Made by a program: the position numbers and the translations under genes. From Piscinibacter sp. (lineage in GTDB: Bacteria > Pseudomonadota > Gammaproteobacteria > Burkholderiales > Burkholderiaceae_C): DNA of 64,000 nt. The notes beneath the pieces are model-generated. The model worked only from the letters and a program-made list of their open reading frames with translations. It was not told where the DNA came from and did not search any database. Each line of letters starts with the position of its first letter. The stretch's first letter is position 1. This document shows positions 49,557-55,464 of the stretch, one piece after another. The stretch covers positions 1 to 64,000 of the forward strand of contig JAHBZL010000018.1 of the NCBI GenBank assembly GCA_019635485.1, given 5' to 3'.

Positions 49557-49578
49557 GCGTGCCTCCGGAGGGCGTTCG

Positions 49579-49595
49579 TAGCAAGACAGGTGCCA
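49579..49595 (-). promoter_or_regulatory. Sigma-54 promoter of the nirB operon
   Basis: Minus-strand TGGCAC (49595-49590), five bases, then TTGCTA (49584-49579): a GG-N10-GC arrangement matching the -24/-12 consensus TGGCACG-N4-TTGCW almost exactly. The expected start site is near 49569, leaving a leader of about 13 bases that just holds the GGAGG ribosome site. The hit is in the 56-base gap before the divergent kinase gene, where an assimilatory nitrate operon under NtrC would be expected to have it. Confidence 0.82.
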
Positions 49596-49612
49596 CGGGC
49601 GACAATGAACCC

Positions 49613-51319
49613 ATGACGTTCGAGATCGAGATCGGCCAGGCGAGCCGGCGCGGACCGAGGGAGATCAACGAGGATTTCGTCGGCGCGGCGCAGTCGGCCC
49701 CCGGCGATGCGGTACCGGGCGTGATCGCCGCGATCGCCGACGGCGTCAGCAGCGCCGGCCGCGGGCGCGAAGCGGCGCAGACCAGCGTCAGGGGCCTGGT
49801 CGCGGACTTCTTCGCGACGCCGGCGACCTGGGAGACCAGCGTCGCGCTGGACCGGCTGTTCAGCGCGCAGAACGCCTGGCTGGTGGCACAGAACCGGCAG
49901 CGCGAAGGGCAGGCCGGCGAGGCGGCACTGACGACGCTCTCCGCGCTGGTGCTGCAGGGGCAGACCTGGACCGTGGCGCATGTGGGCGACACGCGCGTCT
50001 GGCGCGTCGCCGGCGGCGAGATCCAGCGCCTGACCCAGGACCACGCCTACACGCAGCCCGAGCAGCGCAACCGGCTGACGCGCGCGGTCGGCCTCGACGA
50101 GCTGCTGCACGTCGACTCGCTGCAGGGCGAGCTGCAGCTCGGCGACGCCTTCGTGCTGACCAGCGACGGCGTGCACGGCGTGCTCAAGCCGCGCGAGATC
50201 GGTGCGCTGGCGGTCGCCGGCACGGCGCAGCAGGCCGCGGAGGCGATCGCCGACGCCGCCCTGGCGCGCGGCGCCAAGGACAACGCGAGCGCGCTGGTGC
50301 TGCGCGTGCAAGGGCTGAACCCGGCCCGGCTGGAGGACGAGACCGTGCGCACGCGCCAGCTGCCGGCCCTGCCGCGCCTGCGCGTGGGCGACGCGGTCGA
50401 CGGCTACACCGTGACCGCGCTGGTGGCCGACACCGGTGTGCACCGGCTCTACCAGGCGCGCGAGCAGCGCTCCGGCGACCTGGTGGTGCTGAAGACCCTG
50501 CACGAGTCGCGCGCCGGCGATGCGCAGGAACGGGCGATGCTGGCGCACGAGGCCTGGCTGGCACAGCGCGTGACCGAGCGCGATGCGCGCGGGTTCGTGC
50601 GCAGCCGCCCGGTGCACGCGGCCAGCGCGCTGTACCTGGTGTTCGACTGGCACGGCGGGCAGACGCTCGAGCAGATGCTGGCGGCGGGCCGGCGTTTCGC
50701 GGTGGCCGACGTGGTCGCCGCGGCGACGCAGGTCGCCCGCGCGCTCGGCCGCCTGCACCGCCAGGGCGTGATCCACCGCGACATCAAGCCCGGCAACCTG
50801 CACCTCGGGGATGACGGCCAGTGGCGCGTGCTGGACCTGGGCGTGGCGCTGTCCGGCCGCGAGGGCGAGGCGGCGCGCGAGCTGCATGCCGGCACGCCGA
50901 GCTACATCAACCCCGAGCAGTGGGCCGGCGCCGCGGCGGACCCGGGCGCCGACCTGTTCGCCTTCGGCGTCACGCTGTACCGCTGGCTCGCGGGCCGGCT
51001 GCCCTACGGCGAGATCGAGCCGTACCAGGTCGCGCGCTATCGGCGCGATCCGCAGCCGCTGTCGCGCATCCGGCCGGACGTGCCGATCTGGCTCGATCAT
51101 CTCGTGCTCCGCGCGGTCGCGATCGACCCGAAGCAGCGCTTCGAGACGGCCGAGGAACTGCTGCTCGCGCTCGAGCGCGGCGCGGCCCGGCCGGTCGCCG
51201 CGCCGGCCGCGACGCCGCTGGTCGCACGCGACCCGACCGCGCTGTGGAAGATCGCCCTGGGCATCTCGCTGCTCTTCAACGCGCTGCTGGCGTTCTGGCT
51301 GGTGTTCCTGCCGCACTGA
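49613..51319 (+). CDS. Bifunctional PP2C phosphatase / Ser-Thr kinase, membrane-anchored
   Basis: A 568-residue fusion. Residues 1-235 are a PP2C phosphatase (REINEDF, AAIADGVSSAGRG, VAHVGDTRVWRV, VLTSDGVHGVL, AKDNASALVL). A Hanks-type kinase follows at about 260-525: ATP lysine in DLVVLKTL, catalytic loop VIHRDIKPGNLHL, DLGVAL replacing the usual DFG, and GTPSYINPEQW. The C-terminal helix (residues 545-566) anchors it. It is divergent from nirB and tail-to-tail with the transporter, so regulation of nitrate uptake or assimilation by phosphorylation is plausible. No substrate is shown. Confidence 0.9.
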   Translation: MTFEIEIGQASRRGPREINEDFVGAAQSAPGDAVPGVIAAIADGVSSAGRGREAAQTSVRGLVADFFATPATWETSVALDRLFSAQNAWLVAQNRQREGQAGEAALTTLSALVLQGQTWTVAHVGDTRVWRVAGGEIQRLTQDHAYTQPEQRNRLTRAVGLDELLHVDSLQGELQLGDAFVLTSDGVHGVLKPREIGALAVAGTAQQAAEAIADAALARGAKDNASALVLRVQGLNPARLEDETVRTRQLPALPRLRVGDAVDGYTVTALVADTGVHRLYQAREQRSGDLVVLKTLHESRAGDAQERAMLAHEAWLAQRVTERDARGFVRSRPVHAASALYLVFDWHGGQTLEQMLAAGRRFAVADVVAAATQVARALGRLHRQGVIHRDIKPGNLHLGDDGQWRVLDLGVALSGREGEAARELHAGTPSYINPEQWAGAAADPGADLFAFGVTLYRWLAGRLPYGEIEPYQVARYRRDPQPLSRIRPDVPIWLDHLVLRAVAIDPKQRFETAEELLLALERGAARPVAAPAATPLVARDPTALWKIALGISLLFNALLAFWLVFLPH

Positions 51320-51324
51320 ACGCC

Positions 51325-52617
51325 TCAGCGGATCGGGTAGCTGGCACCTGACGCAGCCGGCGCGGCGTGGGCGGAAGCACGCGCGCGGCCCCCCTTCTCG
51401 GCCCAGGTGCGGGTCCAGCGGATCTGCACGACCCGCAGCATCACGAGCATCGCCAGCGCCAGCGCCGCGAACGACACGAAGCCCCACAGGTAGGTGCCGG
51501 ACCACTGCTTGGACAGGCCCATCGCGTTGGGGATGAAACCGCCGCCGAGCGCGCCGACCTCGCCGATCATCGAGCCGGCCACCGCGGTGGTGAGCGGCCA
51601 GCGCAGCGGCACCAGCTGGAAGAGGGCGCCGTTGCCGGCCCCGAGGCTCGCGAAGCAGAGCATGAACAGCAGCGTCGTCGCCGCGACCGAGCCGCCGGTG
51701 AGCCCGCACAGCACCAGCGTCCCGGCCACCGCGATCAGCACGCCCGACAGCGTGGCGATGCCGCCGATGCGGTCGGAGATGTAGCCGCCGACCACGCGCA
51801 CCGCGGAGCCCATCAGCGTCGCGAGCATCGTCAACTGGCCGGCCTCGACCTTGGTGACCTTGAACTGGTCGTGGAAGTAGGTGGGCAGGAAGCTGGCCAG
51901 CCCGATGAAGCCGCCGAACGTCACGACGTAGATCAGGCTGAAGGCCCAGCCGTCCTTCTCGAACAGGCAGGCGATGTGTTCGCGGAAGGTCTGATGCTCA
52001 CGGTCCGGCGGCTCCTTCGCGGCGAACCACATCACGAGCATCGGCACCAGCATGGTCAGCGCGGCCAGGCCGTAGACGGCCTGCCAGCCGTAGCGCGTCG
52101 CCAGCGGCGGCGCGAACAGCACGGCGAGCACGGTGCCGGAGTTGCCGGCGCCCGCCAGGCCCATGGCCAGCCCCTTGTACTTGGGCGGGAACCAGCCGCT
52201 GCCCAGGCTCAGCGCCACCCCGAAGCTGGCACCGGCAATGCCGAGCAGCACGCCCATCAGAATCACTTCGTCGTAGGTGTCGACGGCAAAGTAGCCGAAG
52301 CTCAATGCGGCCACGATGAGCGACATCTCGACCAGCGCGGCGTTCTTGCGCCCGATGTACTGCGACAGCACGCCGAGCGGGAAGCGCATCAGCGCGCCCG
52401 CCAGGATCGGCACGGAGAGCATGAAGCCCTTCTGCGCCGCGTCGAGATGGAAGGTCTCGCTGATGAACGGACCCATCGCGCCGTTCAGCACCCAGACGGC
52501 GAAGCAGAAGTCGAAATAGAGGAACGAGGCGAACAGCGTCGGCCAGTGGCCGGACTGGAGGAACGCCTTGGCGCCGGTAGCGGCAACGCCACGAGGGGCG
52601 GTGTGGACGACGGACAT
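51325..52617 (-). CDS. Nitrate/nitrite MFS transporter (NarK/NasA family)
   Basis: A 430-residue major-facilitator protein with about twelve membrane helices. NarK-type features are FLYFDFCFAVWVLNGAMGPFI near residue 32 and two glycine-rich nitrate signatures: GIAGASFGVALSLGSGWFPPKYKGLAMGLAGAGNSG in the first half (near 145-180) and SLGAGNGALFQLVPLRWP plus VGALGGGFIPNAMG in the second. It imports nitrate for NasA. A GGAG site precedes the ATG. Its long leader carries candidate ANTAR target hairpins behind a sigma-54 promoter. Confidence 0.93.
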   Translation of the reverse strand: MSVVHTAPRGVAATGAKAFLQSGHWPTLFASFLYFDFCFAVWVLNGAMGPFISETFHLDAAQKGFMLSVPILAGALMRFPLGVLSQYIGRKNAALVEMSLIVAALSFGYFAVDTYDEVILMGVLLGIAGASFGVALSLGSGWFPPKYKGLAMGLAGAGNSGTVLAVLFAPPLATRYGWQAVYGLAALTMLVPMLVMWFAAKEPPDREHQTFREHIACLFEKDGWAFSLIYVVTFGGFIGLASFLPTYFHDQFKVTKVEAGQLTMLATLMGSAVRVVGGYISDRIGGIATLSGVLIAVAGTLVLCGLTGGSVAATTLLFMLCFASLGAGNGALFQLVPLRWPLTTAVAGSMIGEVGALGGGFIPNAMGLSKQWSGTYLWGFVSFAALALAMLVMLRVVQIRWTRTWAEKGGRARASAHAAPAASGASYPIR

Positions 52618-52669
52618 GATGGCTCCGGAGAACGCCGACCGGCCAGGCCGTCGGCAGGAGATACATCAC

Positions 52670-52733
52670 CGCACACCTCGCTGTGCGCGCGGCCTGCCGT
52701 ATCGGTGCAGGCCGGGTGCGTCGTTACACCCGG
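52670..52733 (-). ncRNA. Candidate ANTAR-target leader RNA of the nitrate transporter
   Basis: Minus-strand transcript reading. P1 (52733-52712): eight pairs, CCGGGTGT with GCACCCGG (one U-G), hexaloop AACGAC, having A1 and G4. A second hairpin (52689-52670): seven pairs with hexaloop AGCGAG, again A1 and G4; a competing register gives six Watson-Crick pairs and loop GCGAGG. Between them is an 8-pair GC hairpin (52714-52690) sharing three bases with P1, so it competes with it. It has no U-run. The tandem A1/G4 hexaloop design is the known ANTAR binding signature. Confidence 0.65.
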
Positions 52734-52742
52734 GCGGATTGC

Positions 52743-52759
52743 TTGCAAGAGCCGGGCCA
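52743..52759 (-). promoter_or_regulatory. Sigma-54 promoter of the nitrate transporter
   Basis: Minus-strand TGGCCC (52759-52754), GGCTC, TTGCAA (52748-52743): GG-N10-GC spacing, close to the -24/-12 consensus. Twelve bases downstream of the -12 C is 52733, the first paired base of hairpin P1. Promoter and leader hairpin therefore support each other. It lies in the 358-base gap between the transporter and the ANTAR gene. Confidence 0.78.
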
Positions 52760-52879
52760 GGCTACGGGGAAACCCGGTGGATCGAGCGCCAGCCCGCGCC
52801 GATGCTGGATTTGCGGCGCCCGGGGCGGCACCCGTCGAGCTTCCAGCCAGCGTGCCGGGGTGGGGAGTCTTCCCCAGGC

Positions 52880-52908
52880 TGGTGCGGCGCAGCATGGCAA
52901 GCTGGTGC
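52880..52908. promoter_or_regulatory. Possible NtrC half-sites upstream of the transporter promoter
   Basis: Two TGGTGC half-sites (52880-52885 and 52903-52908) lie 23 bases apart, roughly two helical turns, 130-160 bases upstream of the sigma-54 promoter. TGGTGC is one arm of the NtrC palindrome. The matching GCACCA arms are not seen at the right spacing, so this is only a suggestion. The rest of 52760-52975 shows nothing else I can name. Confidence 0.3.
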
Positions 52909-52975
52909 GGGGTGTGCACGCCGTATGCTTGCGGTCGGCTGGTCCCGCCGCATCCCGTCCACACCGCAGTCGTCC

Positions 52976-54247
52976 ATGCCCGCTGTCCTGCTGGTCACCG
53001 CTTCCGGAGCGCCCGACATCGGCGCCGCTCTGGCCGCCCAGGGCGTGACCGTGGCGGCGCGCTGCGGGCCGGACCGGCTGGTCGTGGAGGCGGCCCGCAG
53101 CGGCGCCGATGCCGTGGTCGCGTGGGACGCCTACCCGGCCGCCGGGCTGCTGGCGGCGCTCGCGACGCTGCGTCAGCACGCGCCCTGTCCGGTGCTGCTC
53201 TTCACCGACGACGGCGACGCGGGGACGCTGGACGCCGCGCTGCAGGCGGGTGTGCATGCCTATGTCGTGAAGGGCTACGACCCGGCCCGCCTGCGCCCGC
53301 TGCTGCAGCTGGCGCGGGCACGTTTCGAGCGCGATGCCGCCCTGCACGCGGCCCACGCCGAACTCGCCGGCCGCTACGAGGAGCGCAAGCTGGTCGAGCG
53401 GGCCAAGGGCATCCTGATGCGCGAGCAGCAGATCTCCGAGGACGAGGCGTTCCGCCAGCTGCGCCAGGCCTCGATGCACGGGCAGGAGAAGGTCGGGCAG
53501 GTGTCGCGCCGGGTCATCGACGCGGCGCGCGACACCGATGCGGTGAACCGCGCCGGGCAGCTGCGCATGCTGTCGCAGCGCCTGGTCAAGCTCTACGCGC
53601 TGCGCTGCGCCGGCGTCGATGCGGCTGCGGCCGAGCTGGCGCAGCAGCAGTCCGCACGACAGGTGGCCGACAACCTGGCGGCGCTCGGCAAGGGGCTCTC
53701 GCGTCCCACCTTCGGCGACCTGCTGGACGGCGTCGAGAAGGCCTGGGCCGCGTTGCAGCCGGTGCTGCGCCGCCCGCCACGCGTCGAGCACCTGATCGCG
53801 GCCGATGACGCTGCCGAGCAGCTGCTGAGAACCGCCGAAGCACTGACCACGGCGCTCGAGGTCGCCAGCGCGCTGCGCACGCTGACGGTGGTCAACCGCG
53901 CGGGCCGGCAGCGCATGCTGTCGCAGCGCCTGGCCAAGCAGGCCCTGCTCGGGACCCTCGGCGACGGCGATGTCGCGCAGGCGGCCGCGGCCGACGCCGT
54001 GCGCAGCGTCGAGTCGTTCGAGCTCGCGCTGCGCCAGCTGGGCGAGGCGCCGCTCAGTTCGCCGGAGATCCGCAGCCGGCTGGAAGCGGCGATGCAGGTG
54101 TGGCGCGAGCTGCTGGCCGGCCTCGCCGAGGCAGGCACCGGGCCGGGCCGCGCCCGCATCGCCGCGGCCAGCGAAGCCCTGCTCGATCACTTCGAACGGC
54201 TGACCGCCCTGTATGCGCGCGCGGCCCAGGTGCTGCTCGAAACCTGA
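52976..54247 (+). CDS. Pseudo-receiver/ANTAR antiterminator with two C-terminal PilJ (NIT-like) sensor repeats
   Basis: A 423-residue protein. Residues 1-120 are receiver-like with Asp51 and a lysine in YVVKGYD, but the first strand ends LLVTASG, lacking the acidic pair. A coiled helix leads into ANTAR at about 140-195 (VERAKGILMREQQISEDEAFRQL). Two PilJ-type modules follow, each with AG-RMLSQRL (AGQLRMLSQRLVK near 200, AGRQRMLSQRLAK near 310); the same motif forms the nitrate-binding P-box of NarX. The protein is soluble. It is divergent from the nitrate transporter and probably binds its leader RNA when nitrate is present. Confidence 0.88.
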   Translation: MPAVLLVTASGAPDIGAALAAQGVTVAARCGPDRLVVEAARSGADAVVAWDAYPAAGLLAALATLRQHAPCPVLLFTDDGDAGTLDAALQAGVHAYVVKGYDPARLRPLLQLARARFERDAALHAAHAELAGRYEERKLVERAKGILMREQQISEDEAFRQLRQASMHGQEKVGQVSRRVIDAARDTDAVNRAGQLRMLSQRLVKLYALRCAGVDAAAAELAQQQSARQVADNLAALGKGLSRPTFGDLLDGVEKAWAALQPVLRRPPRVEHLIAADDAAEQLLRTAEALTTALEVASALRTLTVVNRAGRQRMLSQRLAKQALLGTLGDGDVAQAAAADAVRSVESFELALRQLGEAPLSSPEIRSRLEAAMQVWRELLAGLAEAGTGPGRARIAAASEALLDHFERLTALYARAAQVLLET

Positions 54248-54426
54248 ACGCTGCAGACGCCCCCCTGTTCAAGCGGTGTCCGGTCCGCCGCACTGCGTAT
54301 CATCGATCTACAAACTAGGGGGTTGGGCGGCCTGGCCAGGGCGTGTCCTTGTCAAGCCGCCTGGGCGGGAACACCATAGCCGACCCCAGCCGGCCGCCGT
54401 GGCGGCCGGATTCCACCACGATACCG

Positions 54427-55464
54427 ATGACCGACCCGCTGCCGTCCGCCACGGATTCACCCGCCTCCGGGAGCCTTGCGCTGCTCGCGTCGCTGGGGCA
54501 GCCCGAGGGCGCACTGCTCGGTGCTCTGCTCGAAGCGCTCGACCGGCTGGAGCTGCCGCTGGCGATCAAGGACCTGGCCACCGGACAGTACCGGCACGCG
54601 AATGCCCGCATGGTCGCGTTGCTGGGGGTCCCGGCGGACCAGGTGATGGGCAGCACCGATGCCCAATGGCTGGAGGCGAGCCAGTGGCCGGCGCTGAGAA
54701 CGGCCGAGCAGGCCGCTGCCGCCATGCCGCACGGTGCCGTCTCCGAGCACCGCCTGGACATCGGCGGCCAGCGGCGCGAGTTCAGCGTCGCCCGCGTGCC
54801 GCTGGCCTCGGCGGGCGGCGCGCCGCGGCTGCTGTGCTGCCTGTGGACCGAACTGACCGAGGCCCGTGCCCGCGAGGCGCGGCTGCAACAGGCGCTCGGT
54901 CAGATCGAGCAGCAGCAGCAGGCCGCGGAGACGCTGCGGCGGGAGAGCTACGACCAGGCGCTGCGCGACAGCGTCACCGGGCTGTACCAGCCGGCCCACT
55001 TCGGCGACCAGTTGCGGCGCGAGGTCGACCTGTCCTCGCGCGAGCATCGCGAGTTCTCGCTCGTGTCCATCGCGATCGACCCGCCCGGCGACGAGGTTCG
55101 TTCGCTCGGGGCGCCGGCCGCCACGCGCATCCTCGAGGCGCTCGGGCGGCTGCTGCGCGGCAACACGCGCGCGATGGACGCTTCCTGCCGGCTCGACGAC
55201 AGCCACTTCGCTGTCCTGCTGTCGGGGGTCGGCCTGGCGACGGCGCATTCGCGCATGGAAGGGTTGCGGCGCCAGTGCGCGACGCAGATCGTCGTGCTCG
55301 AAGGCCGCAACCTCGGCTTCACGGTCTCGATGGGCGTCGCGAGCTTTCCGCACACGGCGCACACCCAGGAGGCGCTGGTGCAGGCCGCGGAGACCGCCCT
55401 GGCGGAGGCCCGCAAGCGCGGCGGCAATCACGTCACGCTGGCCAGCATCCGGTTCGAGAACTGA
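54427..55464 (+). CDS. PAS-like plus degenerate GGDEF domain protein
   Basis: A 345-residue soluble protein. A PAS-like sensor occupies roughly residues 35-150 (LPLAIKDLATGQYRHANARMVALLGVPADQVMG). A glutamine-rich coiled coil comes next (about 155-180), then a GGDEF-type fold that starts DSVTGLYQPAHFGDQL. The active-site loop reads CRLDDSHFAVLLSG instead of RGGDEF, so cyclase activity is unlikely. I start at MTDPLPSA (54427); a GTG at 54343 is less convincing. It follows the ANTAR gene by 179 bases with no clear shared promoter. Confidence 0.85.
   Translation: MTDPLPSATDSPASGSLALLASLGQPEGALLGALLEALDRLELPLAIKDLATGQYRHANARMVALLGVPADQVMGSTDAQWLEASQWPALRTAEQAAAAMPHGAVSEHRLDIGGQRREFSVARVPLASAGGAPRLLCCLWTELTEARAREARLQQALGQIEQQQQAAETLRRESYDQALRDSVTGLYQPAHFGDQLRREVDLSSREHREFSLVSIAIDPPGDEVRSLGAPAATRILEALGRLLRGNTRAMDASCRLDDSHFAVLLSGVGLATAHSRMEGLRRQCATQIVVLEGRNLGFTVSMGVASFPHTAHTQEALVQAAETALAEARKRGGNHVTLASIRFEN

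Follow-up and report, generated by a model that had tools for sequence, protein, structure and literature searches.

The window, a stretch of 64,000 nucleotides of Piscinibacter DNA, contains a narK-type gene on the minus strand and, divergent from it on the plus strand, a gene whose product combines receiver-like, ANTAR and PilJ domains (Table 1). Between the two genes, on the minus strand, lies a leader of 116 nt (about 117 in the preliminary description). The narK product matches TIGR00886 (E 1.1e-72) with 245.1 bits, which is under the model cut-off of 311.7, and also matches PF07690. A gene for a PP2C phosphatase-protein kinase fusion (49559–51319, plus strand) is located between narK and nirB on the opposite strand.

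The ANTAR-PilJ protein carries the motif NRAGxxRMLSQRL in both of its PilJ stretches. A nitrate P-box has been described for sensors of the NarX/NarQ type (PMC8199190), and because the motif is close to this box, it is likely that the ANTAR-PilJ protein senses nitrate. Two ANTAR genes are present in the genome. A PAS-GGDEF diguanylate cyclase gene (54343–55464, plus strand) follows the ANTAR-PilJ gene.

Table 1. Features of the narK leader and the genes flanking it, in window coordinates.
Feature	Position	Strand	Evidence
narK-type nitrate/nitrite MFS transporter, gene regulated by the leader	51325–52617	−	TIGR00886 and PF07690
GGAGCCAUC: Shine-Dalgarno GGAG (52626–52623) and CAUC by the narK start codon	52618–52626	−	sequence
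GC hairpin inside the predicted E-SD helix, no U-run after it	52634–52655	−	RNAfold; terminator scan; sequence
Element E, GAUGUAUCUCC: GUAUC (52664–52660), putative partner of the PM loop; GAUG and CUCC, putative partners of the SD/start region	52657–52667	−	loop-pairing tests; folding and comparison
P2, hairpin of 7 bp, hexaloop AGCGAG (A1, G4)	52670–52689	−	sequence; covariation
PM, middle hairpin of 7–8 bp, loop ACCGAUACG with GAUAC (52703–52699)	52691–52713	−	sequence; RNAfold; covariation test
P1, hairpin of 8 bp, hexaloop AACGAC (A1, G4)	52712–52733	−	sequence; covariation
Sigma-54-type promoter, TGGCCC-N5-TTGC, predicted +1 at 52733	52745–52759	−	sequence; 5′ end of Rfam narK RNA alignment; rpoN in genome
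Divergent receiver-like/ANTAR/PilJ protein, candidate RNA-binding nitrate sensor	52976–54247	+	PF03861 (1.8e-16); PF13675 (3.7e-21, two stretches); PF00072 below cut-off

A sigma-54-type promoter leading into tandem hexaloop hairpins had been noted at this place earlier, and reading of the minus strand confirms this arrangement. In the promoter sequence TGGCCCGGCTCTTGC, GG is located at 52758–52757 and GC at 52746–52745. Taking this GC as positions −13/−12 places the predicted transcription start on the first base of P1, so the direct reading of the promoter spacing bears out the start proposed before. The GG-N10-GC motif has the TGGC and TTGC context and aligns to the 5′ end of the Rfam narK RNA, whose consensus contains the same motif; it is also retained in relatives, where the scan had searched for it. 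The same genome contains an rpoN gene. With one simple pattern, no NtrC palindrome of the classic type was seen upstream of the promoter, and no sigma-70-like site was found between 52400 and 53000. The best reading of the promoter sequence is that sigma-54 together with NtrC would provide the nitrogen-control input of the leader.

Tandem hexaloop hairpins of the leader and its relatives

P1 is formed by CCGGGUGU and GCACCCGG around the loop AACGAC, and P2 by CGCGCAC and GUGUGCG around the loop AGCGAG; the A at position 1 and G at position 4 of both loops, pointed out in the preliminary description, are plainly seen in the sequence. PM extends from 52713 to 52691, or from 52714 to 52690, and has two or three bases in common with P1. 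This overlap had been described before and stands, but the competition between PM and P1 that was deduced from it does not, as in many relatives the two helices merely abut and PM is kept. Pairing of the PM loop or of element E with P1 was rejected as well, because the window's genus keeps a GGGUG-/CACCC-like P1, although its loop and E together differ from those of the other leaders. In the window and its genus mates, the first narK codons (CGUCGU..CACACC, 52617–52600, minus strand) are complementary to P1 (GGUGU.ACGACG, 52731–52720, minus strand); the corresponding pairing, predicted by RNAfold in a longer fragment, was judged unspecific, since the true pairs are better than permuted ones (19 of 5000 permutations as good), but the same holds for a control region (13 of 5000).

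The minimum free energy structure of the leader (RNAfold) holds P1, PM and P2, and a further helix in which GAUG and CUCC of element E pair with CAUC and GGAG of the Shine-Dalgarno (SD) region. The folding energy is only mildly unusual (z −1.8), 8 of 200 shuffled sequences being equally good.

Relatives of the leader were collected through protein searches. In 150 genomes of the window's family, 93 matched the ANTAR-PilJ protein at E ≤ 1e-10, many of them with short NasT-type or PilJ-only proteins. Scanning with 15 aligned NarK proteins yielded a set of 80 loci, the best 80 of 545; the nearest among these best 80 belongs to Piscinibacter sp. MQ-18 (NarK 89%, ANTAR-PilJ 72%). The assembled set comprised 101 ANTAR-PilJ leader sources, some loci having entered it twice because two routes led to them. 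A permissive scan, which demanded the sigma-54 motif together with R and G as the first and fourth loop bases, located a P1 in 96 sources; at least L157 and L193 are clearly misplaced. The P1-PM-P2 plan, which we call class I, was picked by eye in 46 sources, of which 38 remained once eight near-duplicates (identity to another source of about 92% or higher) had been discarded. Within the pieces of sequence fetched, 21 of these 38 have a match to narK only, 12 to nirB only, four to both and one (L168) to neither. Among the other sources, as judged by eye, some lack a clear P2 behind P1 and some have an intrinsic terminator after it (for example L051 and L190–L192).

The 38 leaders were aligned by MAFFT without the use of structure, and the structure tested consisted of P1, PM, P2 and a pairing between the PM loop and E. 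Pairing is possible in 87.1% of the alignment cells compared with 76.0% after shuffling, and changes on both sides occur in at least one sequence at 18 of the 23 pairs. The covariation score is 0.389 against 0.208 ± 0.011 for shuffled alignments (none of 500 as good) and at most 0.131 when the structure is slid along the alignment. By helix, the paired cells amount to 93.1% in P1, 75.7% in PM, 80.7% in the loop-E helix and 92.9% in P2. RNAalifold recovers P1 and P2 unaided but does not recover PM. Hence the covariation analysis in relatives, proposed earlier as a check, comes out in favour of P1 and P2, whose paired bases are conserved with strong covariation across the 38 leaders of the family.

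Conservation of the loop letters is uneven. Position 4 is G in both loops of all 38 leaders, where the parser had demanded this G in P1 and, except for hand-placed leaders, in P2. Position 1 varies between A and G (18 and 20 of the P1 loops, 26 and 12 of the P2 loops, respectively); where it is G, loop positions 1 and 6 are often able to pair. When P1 was scanned without letter requirements, the 38 leaders split evenly: the best reading was a four-base loop in 19 and a six-base loop in 19, and every one of these six-base loops has G as its fourth base. Of the two recognition features named in the preliminary description, G4 is thus upheld, whereas A1 is not supported as a rule.

A control on narK loci used 29 classed as carrying a divergent ANTAR-PilJ gene (one of them, L096, carrying only a distant ANTAR hit) and 39 classed as lacking it, 12 of the 80 loci being omitted as unclear. 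In the set of 39, an ANTAR/PilJ-like match occurs downstream of narK, at a distance of about 2 kb or greater, in L088, L118 and L138, and L141 contains a short match to PilJ. Hexaloops with G, A, C and T at position 4 numbered 48 (in 26 loci), 5, 16 and 9 in the set of 29, and 6 (in six loci), 4, 17 and 6 in the set of 39. In loci without the divergent gene, the sigma-54 motif is located only 55–81 nt ahead of the start codon in 25 of 28 usable loci (none was found in the other three), leaving little room for a leader.

Judged by their two tandem six-nucleotide loops and covarying pairs, P1 and P2 are dual-hexaloop hairpins of the ANTAR-target type. Dual hexaloops are likewise the targets of EutV in the eut leaders of Enterococcus, where G4 has been reported as the sole base-specific contact in the protein-RNA structure (PMC8934654); the constant G4 and loose position 1 observed here are consistent with such a contact. 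The eut system differs in being controlled through a terminator and in that a change of either A1 or G4 lowers induction there (PMC3369931), while position 1 is A or G in the leaders analysed here.

A covariance model was built from the 38 leaders, the window leader included. The window leader reaches 68.7 bits (E 2.7e-10), no other place in the 64 kb exceeds 18.8 bits, and among the 23 matches listed up to E 10 there is no further class I leader before the window's own nirB. Four genus-mate leaders outside the training set score 49.6–71.7 bits. On the 80 narK loci the model matches 20 at E < 0.01, many of which are training sequences or nearly so. Nineteen belong to the set of 29 carrying the divergent gene, and the twentieth is L082, where no such gene was found; the set of 39 gave none. 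Leaders of the same plan are present in 48 of 399 genomes of the family (E ≤ 0.001), near narK or nirB. Under strict filters, three of 300 genomes of the order match, all of them in the window's family, to which the leader looks confined.

A match to the ANTAR-PilJ protein is present in 41 of the 48 leader-bearing genomes, not always adjoining the leader (in G087 it is elsewhere). The remaining seven (G001, G002, G127, G133, G139, G159 and G304) have no such match, which means that the leader is not strictly tied to this protein, and all seven leaders are located upstream of nirB. At E ≤ 1e-40, ANTAR-PilJ is matched in 72 of 399 genomes of the family, seemingly the sample that was also searched for the leader, and in four of the eight genus members including the window's own; the other four have the leader without a match at this level, which makes the cognate protein of the leader uncertain. 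From this distribution, it is possible that NasT may read the leader too. In the genus mates lacking ANTAR-PilJ (L196, L199, L201 and L202), the PAS-GGDEF diguanylate cyclase gene adjoins the nirB leader on the other strand. Inhibition of NasT action by c-di-GMP has been reported (PMC12830290).

Element E and the Shine-Dalgarno region

Element E is conserved just 3′ of P2, and in the window the SD is located 43 nt past P2. The sequence of E allows two pairings, one with the PM loop and the other with the SD and start-codon region.

For the first of these, all four tested pairs can form in 26 of the 38 leaders and are incomplete in 12. Of the two sequences GCAC (PM region) and GUGC (element E), 21 leaders have both, two and one have a single one, and 14 lack the two of them (p 1.7e-7; this and all other p-values are computed as if leaders were independent, shared descent being ignored). 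GAUAC with GUAUC takes the place of this combination in the window and in two genus mates, L144 and L145, which are its nearest distinct relatives, while L043 and L172 have GCGC with GUGU. The leaders with GAUAC and GUAUC form one clade in a 30-row protein tree, so the swap counts as a single event. Taken alone, the loop-E helix gives a covariation score of 0.272 against 0.178 for shuffled alignments (none of 500 as good), but on two weaker measures 25 and 218 of the 500 shuffled alignments did as well, and the helix slid by −2 still pairs 68.5% of the cells. As a counter-example, L196 keeps GUAUC without GAUAC. Inspection by eye suggests that L240, L244 and L245 can pair; it gave no clear partner for GGAUC in L242 and no such pairing in L239, L241 and L243. 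The loop-E pseudoknot is moderately supported by these comparisons, with counter-examples, and we put its chances at about even.

The second pairing was analysed in 17 class I leaders having a recognisable SD and start codon 49–63 nt after P2. The predicted probability that the SD is unpaired has a median of 0.02 in these leaders. For comparison, 28 of the 39 loci lacking the divergent gene allowed an SD to be assigned, and there the median is 0.32 (Mann-Whitney p 5e-4). The stretch from E to the AUG folds with a mean z of −2.1 in the class I leaders and −0.74 in the comparison loci. Blocking of E raises the mean SD accessibility of the 17 leaders from 0.13 to 0.31; individually, it rises by more than 0.05 in ten, falls by more than 0.05 in three (L144, L153 and L163) and changes little in four. 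In the window, the unpaired probability of the SD goes from 0.003 to 0.32 when the GUAUC part of E is blocked. Of the four genus mates with the nirB version, three show a rise upon blocking of E (0.00 to 0.31, 0.00 to 0.42 and 0.26 to 0.60) and one goes against it (0.49 to 0.47). The duplex of E with the start region is better than that of shuffled E at p < 0.05 in seven of the 17 leaders. Across class I, an anti-SD stretch in E and an SD-start placed 40–70 nt after P2 occur together in 17 leaders, with E only in five, the SD only in two and neither in 14 (Fisher p 2e-4). This pairing is partly trivial, since the CUCC in E would match almost any SD. In L036, which has no SD of that kind, CAUGUG in E is opposite to CACAUG at the start codon.

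The reading frame that follows the SD is variable. NarK itself starts directly after it in the window, L144, L145, L038, L152, L163 and L170, whereas a short frame of 17–37 codons is placed before narK in L035, L037, L064, L079, L154 and L156. In L037, narK has no clear SD of its own, which suggests translational coupling with the short frame. The genus mates with the nirB version have either a 35-codon upstream frame beginning with MTVVHT (L196 and L199) or an in-frame NirB start MDVV (L201 and L202), and the NarK start in the window, MSVVHT, resembles both (MxVV). Because the module retains the SD and first codons while the gene behind them changes, translation initiation appears to be its target.

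The output had earlier been left as either Rho-dependent or translational, and the SD pairing together with the co-occurrence of E and SD lends comparative support to the translational alternative. We consider it fairly probable that the leader is a terminator-free ANTAR leader with two inputs, nitrogen through sigma-54/NtrC and nitrate through an ANTAR protein, and with translation initiation as its output by means of the E-SD pairing; for the E-SD switch itself, the support comes from structure prediction and comparison. The Rho alternative, in which the GC-rich untranslated leader would be a Rho substrate and ANTAR binding, directly or via translation of the first frame, would prevent release by Rho, seems rather unlikely to us. 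It would fit the absence of a U-run and the presence of a hairpin behind E, which the window has and which can be seen by eye in several relatives. It would also fit the short upstream frame of some relatives, whose translation could shield the message. However, E is complementary to the SD and tracks its position, and Rho alone needs neither.

Relation to known ANTAR leaders

Against the Rfam narK RNA (RF03032), the window leader aligns over the full length with 16.9 bits, compared with a gathering cut-off of 43.2 (E 0.44–1.4). The consensus of this family reads GGCAC-N5-UUGC, followed by a hairpin with the loop AACGGC and then by an unannotated GAC-AAAGAC-GUC. Among 60 relatives, 47 have a hit to it at E ≤ 1 and none is over the cut-off; three of 14 control genomes have hits at the same level. 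Of the best hits in the 17 highest-ranking genomes (E ≤ 0.0122), 16 are located within 200 nt downstream of a NasT-type ANTAR domain on the same strand, and the remaining one (G029) is 6 kb away. Five of seven such NasT loci scanned also match Rfam P11 (RF00625), under its cut-off. The P11 consensus likewise has the promoter motif, and it also includes a P1-like loop (CAACG..), GGAC-AAAGGC-GUCC and a stem after it. From their consensus sequences, RF03032 and RF00625 look like one and the same NasT leader, represented partly by promoter DNA rather than RNA. We take P11 to be NalA. An Rfam c4-a1b1 match (E 9.4) was regarded as chance.

According to a review, NasT reads NalA, a leader of nirBD that is driven by sigma-54/NtrC (PMC12830290). 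Leaders of this NalA/NasT type (P11 and, on the above reading, the narK RNA) are like that of the window in having a sigma-54 promoter, a hexaloop P1 placed directly behind it and then P2, in preceding nitrate/nitrite genes, and in the presence of an ANTAR protein in the genome. They differ in that their P2 overlaps an intrinsic terminator and in that, in the relatives checked, they usually lie just after nasT, while the window leader has no terminator, contains PM and element E in addition and faces an ANTAR-PilJ gene. One NasT leader is present in the window's own genome (contig C10, about 83990–83830, minus strand, in L210). It has a sigma-54 motif ahead. As seen by eye, it comprises TGGCACGCCGCTTGC and two hexaloops, AACGGC and GACGAC, and its P2 runs into a terminator-like stem that is followed by nine T; it looks like a textbook terminator version. 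The frames downstream of it resemble, by eye, nitrate-binding proteins.

The Klebsiella nasF leader, taken as the model in the preliminary description, is not the closest known relative, a place that belongs to the sigma-54-driven NasT/NalA-type leader. It shares two hexaloop hairpins dedicated to a nitrate-sensing ANTAR protein (PMC3369931), but nasF uses a transcription terminator and NasR has a NIT domain, in place of the receiver-like domain and tandem PilJ observed here. Classic antitermination at a weak terminator missed by simple scans (the hairpin 52655–52634 followed by GUUCUCC) would give the window leader such an output too, and the nasT-type leaders, including that of its own genome, have this anatomy, as do by eye the terminator-ended ANTAR-PilJ leaders mentioned above. 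However, the terminator scan of 52400–53000 gave no site, in line with the earlier remark that no U-run follows the hairpins, and P2 and the downstream hairpin of the window do not overlap, so that they would not exclude each other. We hold this explanation to be improbable.

Control at the level of the ribosome binding site is known from actinobacterial ANTAR RNAs, in which the binding site or AUG is in or beside the dual hairpin and protein binding represses (PMC8164766). The switch proposed here resembles them in its level of control and differs in that a separate element E would mask the SD and binding should activate. Overlap with the ribosome binding site in those RNAs (PMC8164766) lends some plausibility to a steric action, by which P1-PM-P2 would just fold, E would be a conserved linker and the bound ANTAR protein would itself act on the ribosome. 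But the SD here is 43 nt beyond P2, and a repressing protein seems ill-suited to nitrate induction of a nitrate transporter; we regard this explanation as very improbable.

Ramesh et al. (2012) have reported dual-hairpin hits in many bacteria including Burkholderia and Pseudomonas, and upstream of nitrate/nitrite transporters (PMC3369931); neither narK nor a sigma-54 promoter is mentioned in the accessible part of that report, and nor are a middle hairpin and masking of the SD. No open-access paper on the 'narK RNA' was found, and none of the open-access matches listed deals, in its title and the start of its abstract, with ANTAR combined with PilJ or with a sigma-54 ANTAR leader devoid of a terminator. 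The sigma-54-plus-ANTAR logic and the presence of ANTAR RNAs before nitrate transporters are thus known already, and the terminator-less form facing the SD was not met in the open-access matches listed.

A putative translational switch and its meaning

In the favoured reading, with translation initiation as the output, the promoter motif and homology suggest that sigma-54 RNA polymerase, presumably with NtrC, would initiate transcription at P1 or right beside it when nitrogen is limiting. Nitrate would activate an ANTAR protein, for which the candidates are the product of the divergent gene (receiver-like/ANTAR/PilJ) and a NasT-type protein encoded in the same genome, and ANTAR dimers would bind P1 and P2, as loop identity, covariation and gene neighbourhood suggest. 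When the protein is absent, folding prediction and comparison indicate that E would pair with the narK SD and start-codon region and block translation initiation. When it is bound, E would be kept off the SD, probably through pairing with the PM loop, and narK would be translated. A more detailed version, that ANTAR clamps P1 and P2 so that the PM loop captures E as a pseudoknot and frees the SD, and that this terminator-free nitrate control of narK and nirB was derived from a sigma-54-driven antitermination leader, is possible, and we put it forward tentatively.

If this reading is true, a protein-controlled antitermination leader can become a translation switch while keeping its promoter, its protein and its target genes, and the terminator and translational forms of the leader would exist side by side in one genome. 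It would also give the Rfam narK RNA a likely function and suggest that part of that model is promoter DNA and not RNA.
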